Source of the DNA: Hyphomicrobium sp.
GTDB taxonomy: Bacteria > Pseudomonadota > Alphaproteobacteria > Rhizobiales > Hyphomicrobiaceae
Length of the DNA: 64,000 bases
Reading direction: 5' to 3'
Assembly: GCF_019753045.1 (NCBI RefSeq)
Contig: NZ_JAIELN010000002.1
Span: 1-64,000 of the forward strand
The position numbers and the translations under genes are program-made. This document shows, piece by piece, positions 13,861 through 16,806 of the stretch (positions within the stretch are counted from its first letter, which is position 1; each line of letters starts with the position of its first letter). Below the pieces are notes generated by a model that did not search any database, was not told the origin of the DNA, and worked only from the letters and a program-made list of their open reading frames with translations.

Positions 13861-13893
13861 TCAAACAAGATCGGCCAATTCAAACAAGATCGG
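13861..13893. repeat. 14-base direct repeat, period 19, between sgaA and ligase ends
   Basis: TCAAACAAGATCGG occurs at 13861-13874 and again at 13880-13893. The second copy forms the stop codon and last codons of the ligase gene on the minus strand, so this is a short local duplication at its 3' end. Confidence 0.75.
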
Positions 13894-15784
13894 ACGGTGC
13901 CGCCGAGTTCTGAGCGGCACCGCCCCCAACGATCCGCAGCACCGTATCGAGTGTATCCGCTTCAGCCGCGGGCTTATCCCAGCGGATGCGGTGAATGCGC
14001 GGAAACCGCATCGCGACGCCCGATTTATGCCGCGTCGACTCTTGCACCGCGTCGAACGCGACCTCGAACACAAGTTCCGGCTCGACGGCGCGAACCGGGC
14101 CGAACGTCTCGGTCGTATGCCCTCTGATCCACTTGTCGAGCTCCAACAGCTCTTCGTCCGTAAATCCCGAATAGGCTTTGCCGACGGGCACGAGCTGCCG
14201 TTCGCCGTTCTCGTCCGTGCGCCAGACCCCGAATGTGTAATCGGAATAGTAGGACGAGCGCTTGCCGGAGCCGCGCTGCGCGTACATCAGCACGCAGTCG
14301 AGCGTTAGCGCGGCGCGTTTCCACTTGAACCATTCGCCTTTGACCCGGCCGGCCTGATAGGGGCTCGCGCGTCGCTTCAGCATAAGTCCTTCGATGCCTT
14401 CAGCCCGCGCCGACGACCACAGCACGCCGAGTTCGTCGAACGATTTGAATGGAACGAGCTCCGAGACATCCGTCAGCCGCGGATGATGCTTCGCATACCA
14501 GGCTTCGAGGCGAAGGCGCCGCTCGCTGAACGAAAGCCCGCGAAGATCTTCCTCCCCATCGAACAGAAGATCGTAGAGACGCACGTGCGGAGGATACGAC
14601 GACATCATCTTCGCCGTGACCGACTTGCGATTGAGACGCTGCTGCAAGTCATTGAACGGCGCGATTTTATCGTCGCGCATGATCAGCAACTCGCCATCCA
14701 CCACGCAGTCGTGTCCTTGGAACGCCGATCGGATTTCCGGAAAGGCCCCGGAAATATCGTCCCCCTGCCGCGAGAACATGCGGACATCGCCGCCGCGCGC
14801 TGCGACCTGGACGCGGATACCGTCCCATTTCCATTCGGCGGAGAAGTCTTCCGGAGAAAGGCGCGGCCAGTCTTCCTCCTCGATCGGATGCGCGAGCATG
14901 ACGGGGCGAAAAACCGGCTTCGCGCCGGGATCGGGACGCTCCGCCTTGCCATCGAGCCACTGGAAGAGTTCGAGATACGGCGGCTCGAGCGCATGCCATA
15001 CCTCCTCAATCTCGGAAACGTCGCGGGCGTAGCTTTCGGCGAGCGCGGTACGCGCAAGACGAGCCGAAACGCCGACGCGTGGCGCACCGCCGATGAGTTT
15101 CAGAAGAGCCCATCGCCCGGTCGCATCGAGCTGATCGAGAAGACGGCCGAGACGCTCGGTGCGCTCTGCCGTCGTGCCGTCCGCCATCGCGTCGATCACC
15201 GCGCCGAGCGAGAGTTCAGGCGGCTCTCCGGAATTGTGCCCCAGATCACCCCACCCCCGACCCCTCCCCGTCGAGGGGAGGAGAGAAGCGCGTTCCCTCT
15301 CCCCGTCCTTCACGGGGAGAGGGTTAGGGTGAGGGGCGGCAACATTCGACGGCGCTTCGGTCTGCCCCTCACCCCTAACCCCTCCCCCTTGCGGGGAGGG
15401 GTTAGGGGTGGGGGTAAGATCGAGGGCGAGCTGCTTCGGCTTTTCCTTTTCGCCATCACCCCATGTGTGTTGTTCCCCTCCCACTGGCGGGGCAGGGGGA
15501 AGAACAGATCGATCATCAGGCCAGAGCAGAGCCACCGTTTCCGCCGTGTCGCCGACGTAATCGCGCGACAGCCGGTAAAGCGTCGGATCGATGAAGCGGG
15601 TAACGAGATCGCTCAACATCCGCCTGAGCGGCAAGCGGATCGGCACGCCATCCGTCAAAGCGGAGAGCGCCCAGCCACGGTCGGGATCGGGCGCTGTCCG
15701 GAAATAGTGCCCGAGCAGCGCGACCTTGCGATTGCGGCTCTGCGTGTAGACGAGGCAGTCGAGGAGACGGGCGAACGCGCGCAT
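13880..15784 (-). CDS. ATP-dependent DNA ligase with in-frame palindromic repeat insert
   Basis: Seals DNA nicks using ATP. It has 634 residues. The adenylation motif I EWKWDGIR gives the AMP-accepting Lys at 319; the nucleotidyltransferase and OB domains follow (motif V-type FKWKRAALTLD). Residues 1-90 and 185-300 are the N-terminal DNA-binding domain. Residues about 95-182 are a Pro/Gly-rich insert (NPSPQGGGVRGEG, NPLPVKDGERE) translated from palindromic DNA at 15247-15505. Without it the protein would be about 545 residues, close to the usual length. Start MRAFARLLD at 15784 lies 2 bases after the exonuclease stop; the frame extends upstream to 16057 but that part is antisense-like Arg-rich sequence. 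Confidence 0.9.
   Translation of the reverse strand: MRAFARLLDCLVYTQSRNRKVALLGHYFRTAPDPDRGWALSALTDGVPIRLPLRRMLSDLVTRFIDPTLYRLSRDYVGDTAETVALLWPDDRSVLPPAPPVGGEQHTWGDGEKEKPKQLALDLTPTPNPSPQGGGVRGEGQTEAPSNVAAPHPNPLPVKDGERERASLLPSTGRGRGWGDLGHNSGEPPELSLGAVIDAMADGTTAERTERLGRLLDQLDATGRWALLKLIGGAPRVGVSARLARTALAESYARDVSEIEEVWHALEPPYLELFQWLDGKAERPDPGAKPVFRPVMLAHPIEEEDWPRLSPEDFSAEWKWDGIRVQVAARGGDVRMFSRQGDDISGAFPEIRSAFQGHDCVVDGELLIMRDDKIAPFNDLQQRLNRKSVTAKMMSSYPPHVRLYDLLFDGEEDLRGLSFSERRLRLEAWYAKHHPRLTDVSELVPFKSFDELGVLWSSARAEGIEGLMLKRRASPYQAGRVKGEWFKWKRAALTLDCVLMYAQRGSGKRSSYYSDYTFGVWRTDENGERQLVPVGKAYSGFTDEELLELDKWIRGHTTETFGPVRAVEPELVFEVAFDAVQESTRHKSGVAMRFPRIHRIRWDKPAAEADTLDTVLRIVGGGAAQNSAAPSDLV
15247..15505. 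repeat. Cluster of GC-rich palindromic elements inside the ligase gene
   Basis: Four related hairpins lie in 260 bases: CTCCCC/GGGGAG near 15263-15279; 11-base arms 15295-15305 and 15313-15323; 18-base perfect arms 15370-15387 and 15393-15410 with a 5-base loop; and a weaker one near 15474-15502. They share the CCCCTCACCC/TAACCCCTCCCC theme of dispersed alphaproteobacterial intergenic palindromes. All are read through in frame as ligase residues. Confidence 0.85.
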
Positions 15785-15786
15785 CG

Positions 15787-16806
15787 CTATTCGGCCTCCT
15801 CGCCATATCCGACGAGCGCGAGCGCGCGAGCCTTCCGGCCGAGTGTGCCGAGGTAATGGACGAGCGCATCCTCGCGGCCATGCGTCACCCAGATCTCTTC
15901 GGCTTCCGTTTCGATGACCGTCTGAATGAGCTCCGGCCAGTCGACGTGATCGGAGACGACGAGCGGCAACTCGACGCCAAGCTGACGGGCACGGCCGCGT
16001 ACGCGCATCCAACCGCTCGCGAAAGCGTTGACCGGATCGCCGAACCGCCGCGACCATCGATCACCGAGCGCGGAAGGAGGACACATGACGATGCCGCCGC
16101 GCATCGACTTCGGATCGGTGCCCGCAACCGGCAGCAGCTCGCCGAGATCCACGCCGAGCTTCTGATAAAGCTCCGTCAGCGCGACCACCGCGCCATGCAG
16201 GTAGATTGGCTTGTCATAGCCGGCATCGCGAACGACGCGGATCATCCGCTGGCACTTGCCGAGATTGTAGGCGCCGATGAGGTGTGTCCGGTCCGGTTCT
16301 GCGCGGAGAGAGGAAAGTAGCTTCTCGGCTTCGTGCTGCGCCTTCTCGTGGCGGAAAACCGGGAGTGCAAACGTCGCTTCGGTCACGAACACATCGCACG
16401 TGACGAGTTCGAAGGGAGCGCATGTCGGATCGCTCGCACGCTTGTAGTCGCCGGAAACGACGGCGCGCCGCCCGGCCCATTCGATGACGACTTGCGCCGA
16501 CCCAAGAATATGCCCGGCCGGCACCAGCCGCACCTTGACGCCGTTGATGTCGATGGTTTCCCCGATGGCGAGCGGCTGGAATGCGCCGGCACAATCCTCG
16601 CCGTAGCGCACCTTCATGATTTCGATGGTTTCGGACGTTGCGAGCACCGCGCGGTGGCCCGCGCGCGCATGGTCGCTGTGCCCATGCGTAATAACAGCGC
16701 GATCGACCGCCCGGCCCGGATCGATATAAAAATCGCCGGGCTCGCAATAGATGCCGGACCCGACAGGGTACAGCCAGCTGTCGACGGGAGGTGCGAGCGA
16801 GATCAT
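15787..16806 (-). CDS. Ligase-associated DNA exonuclease (metallo-beta-lactamase fold, SNM1/CPSF-like)
   Basis: Predicted metal-dependent nuclease of 339 residues. The metal-binding motif HGHSDHARAGH follows the first strands, and PAGHILGSAQV supplies the next metal-ligand His; VSGDYKR carries the metal-bridging Asp. These are the motifs of the beta-CASP/SNM1 nucleases that are commonly encoded with an ATP-dependent ligase and a Lhr-type helicase. The ligase follows after 2 bases, so the pair is an operon. The helicase and phosphoesterase of the larger cassette are not in this window. The role in DNA damage repair is from family knowledge. Confidence 0.88.
   Translation of the reverse strand: MISLAPPVDSWLYPVGSGIYCEPGDFYIDPGRAVDRAVITHGHSDHARAGHRAVLATSETIEIMKVRYGEDCAGAFQPLAIGETIDINGVKVRLVPAGHILGSAQVVIEWAGRRAVVSGDYKRASDPTCAPFELVTCDVFVTEATFALPVFRHEKAQHEAEKLLSSLRAEPDRTHLIGAYNLGKCQRMIRVVRDAGYDKPIYLHGAVVALTELYQKLGVDLGELLPVAGTDPKSMRGGIVMCPPSALGDRWSRRFGDPVNAFASGWMRVRGRARQLGVELPLVVSDHVDWPELIQTVIETEAEEIWVTHGREDALVHYLGTLGRKARALALVGYGEEAE

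Follow-up and report, generated by a model that had tools for sequence, protein, structure and literature searches.

A BoxC repeat cluster in the reading frame of a Hyphomicrobium DNA ligase, with DUF559 genes as candidate partners of the repeats

The BoxC repeats of E. coli, also described as PIT or TM_ECO, are the closest match to the palindromes analysed here. According to PMC4666352, each repeat combines a hairpin (CCCTCTCCC-loop-GGGAGAGGG) with a third strand, which is either type A (TTAGGGTGAGGG) or type B (CCGGGGTGAGGG). Types A and B are also found as inverted pairs, and triplex formation by E. coli oligonucleotides has been published (PMC4666352). BoxC was already described in E. coli in the 1990s, but there is no agreement on its origin, and PMC4666352 reports finding no mobility activities in the surroundings of its E. 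coli copies. The repeats of the present genome share the hairpin, the third strands and the A/B inverted pairs with E. coli BoxC, whereas here a DUF559 gene adjoins copies. Unlike the E. coli copies described in PMC4666352, some copies here are translated inside genes.

Palindromes inside genes have been described for other repeat families. REPs of such families occur in DnaE2, uvrA, DnaE, a DNA ligase (Opitutus terrae) and tRNA synthetases, according to PMC3733652; thus the presence of palindromes in such genes is in itself no novelty. The intragenic GTAG/CGTC REPs resemble our case in occupying repair and replication genes, but they are a different repeat family, and the CGTC REPs are described there as unassociated with transposase genes (PMC3733652). 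Within one functional gene class these REPs lie at different sites, except in recB of two Xanthomonas (PMC3733652), whereas here the same ligase loop is the site in many species. In the REP-RAYT system (REPtron), a small enzyme gene is flanked by dispersed palindrome copies, which resembles the arrangement around DUF559 (PMC3733652). The REP-RAYT enzyme is an HUH tyrosine transposase, whereas the enzyme here is Vsr-like PD-(D/E)XK (PF04480, related to PDB 3hrl). Rickettsia palindromic elements, judged from their description in PMC3733652, are in-frame palindromes in protein genes as here, and RPE-4 and RPE-6 are classed there as CGTC REPs.

The best overall explanation of the present locus, to which we give a probability of about 0.68, is that a BoxC cluster inserted in frame in the ligase gene, that BoxC repeats are partners of DUF559 genes and that a DUF559 unit would be their autonomous form. 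The DUF559 partner gene is the new lead, palindromes in such genes being known for other REP families (PMC3733652).

Palindromes in the ligase gene

The window, that is, the whole stretch of DNA analysed, covers 64,000 nucleotides of a Hyphomicrobium sp. contig. It contains an ATP-dependent DNA ligase gene of 634 aa (TIGR04120) at 13880..15784 on the minus strand, with the ATG at 15784. The gene of a metallo-beta-lactamase-fold protein (15787..16806, minus strand) is located directly upstream. The ligase scores 732.7 bits against the NCBIfam model TIGR04120, "cisplatin damage response ATP-dependent DNA ligase" (cut-off 400), and the Pfam domains DNA_ligase_A_M and A_C are present. The palindromes fall in an expanded loop coded at 15227..15517 (approximately residues 90-186), and, like the gene, all the following features are read on the minus strand. 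In reading order, a degenerate BoxC-like imperfect hairpin comes first (approximately 15472-15505), followed by a QLALDL-coding stretch (15416..15433). Then come a BoxC-type copy coding TPTPNPSPQGGGVRGEG (15365..15413, with 18-bp perfect arms at 15370-15387/15393-15410) and a BoxC copy with the type A third strand TTAGGGTGAGGGG (15293..15341, with 12-bp perfect arms at 15295-15306/15312-15323), and these two copies form an inverted pair. A third BoxC-like copy coding LPSTGRGRGWGD (15249..15281, with 7-bp arms at 15263-15269/15275-15281) and a GHNSG-coding stretch (15227..15241) complete the loop. The ligase frame contains no stops across 15247-15505.

The repeats fold as a single strand at -153.5 kcal/mol, compared with a mean of -118.3 for the shuffles (z -6.3), and none of 200 dinucleotide shuffles was as low. 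Against 40 shuffles of codon order, which preserve the peptide composition, the z value is -7.2. The first-pass annotation had described four hairpins, one of them with 18-bp perfect arms, in an open ligase frame. This description holds: the palindromes and the frame were located, and the segment folds beyond its shuffles. An Rfam search of the ligase repeats gave no family at the gathering score; the 37 sub-threshold matches, most of them to microRNA models, appear to be chance matches.

Across the 4.52-Mb genome the core CCCCTCACCCNNACCC was counted 13 times and its reversed control 0 times, which indicates dispersed repeats and no local accident. A search of this kind had been proposed in the first-pass annotation, and the sites that we place inside genes are the ligase and dnaE2. 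Hairpins of the CCCTCTCCC type form 16 palindromes in the genome, and the reversed-pattern control gave 2. A third strand resembling GGGTGAGGG lies beside the stem in 13 of the 15 fetched copies, including two ligase copies, and by our rule is absent in the other two (L272 and L279). The ligase copy at 15293..15341 and the copy downstream of the DUF559 gene of this genome are identical in 47 of 49 alignment columns. Six sites carry an inverted pair, 110-121 bp long; the ligase pair is one of them, and 13 of the 36 frames across these pairs are open.

Two other origins of the repeats can be weighed against these results. The loop might be a Pro/Gly-rich low-complexity sequence grown by slippage, with the palindromes as a by-product of composition. 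Tandem LTPTAR repeats in the loop of one relative (L040) and a direct duplication in that of another (L111) are in line with slippage. However, the 47/49 identity to a copy elsewhere, the dispersed copies and the codon-shuffle z of -7.2 make this origin very improbable, and at the ligase locus it is refuted provided that the dispersed copies are related. An origin as GTAG or CGTC REPs, with RAYT tyrosine transposases moving them, is equally improbable. Such REPs have a similar size, inverted pairs and intragenic copies in repair genes, according to PMC3733652, but in 14 of the 15 fetched copies no GTAG or CGTC tag was found within 6 bases of the stem; the single match, GACG, lies beside L270. 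The same count qualifies the parallel with Rickettsia palindromic elements that had been drawn at the outset. As a kind of event the parallel fits, but the repeats themselves match E. coli BoxC.

Copies in other genes and the ligase loop in relatives

Besides the ligase, dnaE2 of this genome carries a BoxC pair in frame. In an alignment of 25 dnaE2 loci, two relatives (G016 and G004) share a similar insert, and G036 has a different BoxC-like insert in the same loop. Five loci (L214, L215, L217, L218 and L219) have a loop of 68-75 aa without BoxC peptides, and in several loci the loop is 47 aa. Judging by the flanking ORFs, we take the intergenic copies to lie at serS/surE, lexA/uvrA, rlmN/hslU, after trpF and at purC/purS. 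A further intergenic site is dnaN/DUF559/recF, where the names dnaN and recF are our presumption, and one more copy lies in a region without a gene name. Palindromes were also found at C4:53232, without a third strand, and at C24:1017. The serS-surE pair is present in this genome (G000), G003 and G017 and absent in G001, G014 and G016, with flanks too diverged for a target-site duplication to be read. We fetched 12 further places that match the peptide of the ligase loop. Six of these are in ORFs longer than 1000 aa, namely UvrA (G008, G018 and G011), DnaE and ValS (both G033) and a FAD-oxidase-like protein (G027). Two matches are in shorter, doubtful ORFs, and four are in no ORF of 150 aa.

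An AlphaFold2 model of the ligase was built from 33 aligned ligases (mean pLDDT 80.9). Residues 102-186, which are flanked by a helix that ends at residue 87 and another that starts at residue 193, have a pLDDT below 50. According to the model, the repeats would code a predicted disordered loop within a helical N-terminal region, and no folded domain.

The loop was measured between the anchors ALLWP and GRWALLKL in 110 ligase loci, comprising 30 from 60 related genomes and the best 80 of 593 in a named genome collection; the sample thus holds the most similar ligases and is no random draw. The length is bimodal: 62 loci have 40-46 aa and 47 have 53-183 aa, the remaining locus being partial. 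After seven duplicates and the partial locus had been dropped, 102 alphaproteobacterial ligases (59 short and 43 long) were placed on a quick tree, on which the direction of change was left uninferred. The loop state changed at least 8 times, and 7 of the changes are forced by starred branches. Strong folding, taken as z <= -4 relative to 40 codon shuffles per loop, was observed for 27 of the 43 long loops. These 27 fall in five groups: Hyphomicrobium, a clade that includes Bradyrhizobium, Methylobacterium and Chelatococcus, and three loci that stand alone (L055, L136 and L157). The other 16 long loops missed this threshold (L037, L038, L043, L045, L111, L120, L126, L134, L137, L139, L144, L153, L159, L163, L170 and L172).

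The relatives thus include short-loop ligases (40-46 aa) without the insert and ligases in which different palindromes occupy this position. This agrees with the earlier proposal of repeated in-frame insertion tolerated by the host, and the absence of the segment from relatives, which was to be looked for, was found. That proposal had been made to depend on two points, and most of it stands: not all relatives carry a non-palindromic insert, and the frame is intact here, but the expanded Hyphomicrobium loops L043 and L045 lack clear palindromes, and in G003 the frame is broken. The description of the ligase as essential-looking did not survive. The gene belongs to TIGR04120; among the 60 related genomes 46 gave a match and 14 gave none, the matches in G033 were weak and covered the loop but not the ligase domains, and in G003 stops lie in frame between the two ligase halves. 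The stops in G003 suggest that insertion is sometimes harmful, or that the G003 sequence has errors.

Very probably, the segment is a BoxC cluster that entered a loop of the ligase N-terminal region by insertion in frame. This reading follows from the near-identity with dispersed copies, the predicted disordered loop, and the relatives without an insert or with different palindromes.

The motif QLxLx[LF] is present in 14 of the 15 expanded Hyphomicrobium loops (the exception is the G003 fragment), in none of the 62 short loops and in none of the 28 other long loops. The repeats sit around this motif. QLALDL and the motif resemble beta-clamp hexapeptides. The loop might be selected for a function, either as a longer reach, as a clamp-binding tether or through an mRNA hairpin that tunes the ligase level, with BoxC kept because it is helpful. 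The motif count speaks for such a function, since only 31 of 7500 shuffled loops contain QLxLx[LF], as does GHNSG or GDNSG in 14 of the 15 Hyphomicrobium loops. The loops are also long throughout two large clades, and those of G001 and G019 retain repeat peptides, yet neither genome contains a copy of the 23-mer core. On the other hand, the L043 and L045 loops carry QLxLx[LF] without a strong palindrome, so that the motifs need not derive from the repeats. The arrangement of repeat peptides varies between Hyphomicrobium species, the frame is broken in G003, and clamp binding is presumed from the resemblance. We consider selection for loop function rather unlikely, and neutral tolerance of insertions in a predicted disordered loop explains most of the ligase case.

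DUF559 genes beside the repeats

The present genome contains a single match to DUF559 (PF04480), at G000:C22:15309-15629, and this gene sits between BoxC copies at 15201-15291 and 15682-15721. The protein is 41% identical to YcjD of E. coli; a relative has a solved structure (PDB 3hrl), the Pfam entry assigns no function, and PADLOC gave weak matches alone. DUF559 is present in 35 of the 60 related genomes. One DUF559 locus was taken from each of 30 relatives, and 23 of these loci are in genomes having the ligase-derived 23-mer. Within 500 bp of DUF559, the 23-mer gave 21 hits against 0.16 expected, at 11 of the 23 loci, whereas the outer flanks of the 23 loci gave 0 hits against 0.23 expected.

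The flanks of 14 DUF559 loci show further BoxC-like classes. A looser criterion, a hairpin with an arm of at least 6 containing CTCCC within 400 bp, was fixed after the flanks had been viewed, and it was then tested afresh on GIY-YIG control loci, on E. coli and on plasmids, as described below. The criterion was applied to 60 loci, comprising the 30 from relatives and the 30 best-scoring from a phylum-wide search of 299 genomes. CTCCC hairpins were detected at 59 of the 60 loci (the miss is L182) and on both sides of the gene at 32. Per kb there are 2.95 such hairpins near DUF559, 0.15 at greater distance and 0.03 in the surroundings of ligases. At GIY-YIG control loci of the same relatives such hairpins were found in 0 of 30, a rough match because the GIY-YIG domain is smaller. 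By our rule, a strict BoxC third strand is present at 33 of the 60 DUF559 loci. The hairpin count took the place of an earlier agnostic test for gapped inverted repeats, in which 14 of 57 DUF559 loci exceeded the 99th percentile of random windows; its penalties were weak and its discrimination poor.

In E. coli K-12 the DUF559 gene ycjD is located at 1351407-1351760, and a BoxC copy lies 167 bp away at 1351201-1351239. This copy is TM_ECO 9, number 9 in the published BoxC table (PMC4666352). The ycjD region is at least 80% covered at one place in 3362 of 5426 E. coli genomes. The fabI-sapF region of E. coli was considered as proof of excision and rejected; two strains without ycjD hold TetR and RND genes there.

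For plasmids, we chose 10 DUF559 records from 20 of the 38 records in a plasmid collection. CTCCC hairpins were found at seven of the 10 loci (three Deinococcus, Sinorhizobium, Sphingomonas, Azospirillum and Pseudanabaena), and no such hairpin was found at the other three, all cyanobacterial. On the Deinococcus plasmids DUF559 lies between genes of the hpa or paa cluster, and the positions differ in two species. In 11 of 12 aligned loci that we selected, inverted repeats of 23-114 bp surround DUF559 in units of 396-690 bp. Examples are L340 (53 bp, 51 identical), L342 (about 70 bp) and L344 (114 bp); L347 has hairpins, but no inverted repeat of the BoxC kind. An annotated protein of Pseudanabaena spans BoxC-like peptides, DUF559 and a methyltransferase domain, so that the whole unit is in frame inside a methyltransferase gene.

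Taken as a partnership of some kind, the relation between BoxC repeats and DUF559 genes is likely. It was reported nowhere in the literature that we searched under DUF559, Vsr, REP/RAYT, mobile elements, intrastrand triplex and CCTCTCCC/GGGAGAGG palindromes. Whether DUF559 would be the mobilising enzyme of BoxC is evenly balanced in our judgement. The hairpins could instead be terminators or autoregulatory sites, or the nuclease could guard against BoxC, with the repeats spread by another enzyme or by slippage during replication or repair. Association alone makes no distinction between mobilisation and regulation, and copies of the 23-mer persist in genomes without a DUF559 match (37 in G023, 47 in G033, 14 in G024 and 14 in G032). 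Conversely, 8 of the 35 genomes with DUF559 have no 23-mer, G001 included. The 23-mer is found in 27 of 35 genomes with DUF559 and in 9 of 25 without (Fisher p 0.003), a value to which we give little weight because the counts are uncorrected for kinship. In Caulobacter, the DUF559 protein VsrA is reported to be responsible for an SOS response in cells without a cytosine methyltransferase (PMC12907096), which also favours a role other than mobilisation. However, a link of this non-mobilising kind fits poorly with the hairpins that flank the gene on either side at 32 of the 60 loci, the long inverted repeats in several units, the 0 of 30 control loci with hairpins and the unit in frame inside another gene in Pseudanabaena. 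We therefore regard it as doubtful.

Proposed mechanism and significance

BoxC repeats are probably the non-autonomous progeny of a mobile unit that would code for DUF559. The mechanism would start from DUF559 genes, coding Vsr-like PD-(D/E)XK nucleases, that are placed beside or between inverted BoxC copies. The autonomous element may be the BoxC-DUF559-BoxC unit of approximately 400-690 bp. The nuclease would cut at BoxC or at hairpins resembling it, after which repair would copy a BoxC pair to a new site. Copies in genes would survive where a pair of 110-121 bp keeps the frame open and the protein accommodates a floppy loop. Such tolerance may apply to the ligase and, judging by their in-frame copies, to DnaE2, UvrA, DnaE and ValS, with disorder predicted for the ligase alone.

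Our widest reading is tentative, at somewhat less than an even chance. BoxC repeats would be the non-autonomous members of a transposon-like family that is widespread and has DUF559 as its enzyme, present in at least Pseudomonadota, Deinococcota and Cyanobacteriota. The family would insert at hairpins or loops, and it would have repeatedly rebuilt the loops of repair proteins (ligase, DnaE2, UvrA and DnaE).

The genes affected overlap with those listed for other REP families in PMC3733652, and thus the puzzle of palindromes gathering in repair genes is now testable. The ligase is a case of a repair enzyme in which one loop has repeatedly received new protein sequence from dispersed repeats. 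If DUF559 and BoxC are linked, each acquires a function that can be tested, and E. coli K-12 with ycjD is a ready model.

Ligase loops in related genomes

In the ATP-dependent DNA ligase locus of genome G003, in-frame stops are present within the loop (L039:1159-1700), and they separate the N-terminal part from the remainder. This ligase may be a pseudogene, a split gene or the product of a sequence error. In genome G007 (locus L040), the ligase loop contains a tandem LTPTAR repeat, flanked by a putative clamp-like motif (QLxLx[LF]) and a BoxC peptide. In the ligase of an Acetobacteraceae MAG (L111), VRSRSAAGAERESAG is present twice in the loop as a direct duplication. This loop has been enlarged through direct duplication, not through palindromes.

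DUF559 loci in E. coli and cyanobacteria

In two E. coli strains (L295 and L296), the DUF559 gene ycjD and its BoxC copy are both absent, and a TetR and efflux gene set adjoins fabI in their place. The DUF559 genes on three cyanobacterial plasmids (L338, L339 and L346) are without BoxC hairpins, and DUF1156 or PglX-type methyltransferase genes are found nearby. On a Pseudanabaena plasmid, an N6-methyltransferase gene (L343:373-3273) contains a BoxC-DUF559-BoxC unit that is read in frame, and additional BoxC-like peptides are found in this gene beyond the unit.

Units within gene clusters on other plasmids

On a Sphingomonas plasmid (L345), the arrangement is sufB, DUF559 and sufC, with BoxC-type hairpins on both sides of DUF559. 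On three Deinococcus plasmids (L340, L341 and L342), DUF559 units are located between hpa or paa cluster genes, and the unit positions differ between two species. The complementary arms of L340 and L342 run past the BoxC part, as if the unit had been inserted into a host palindrome.
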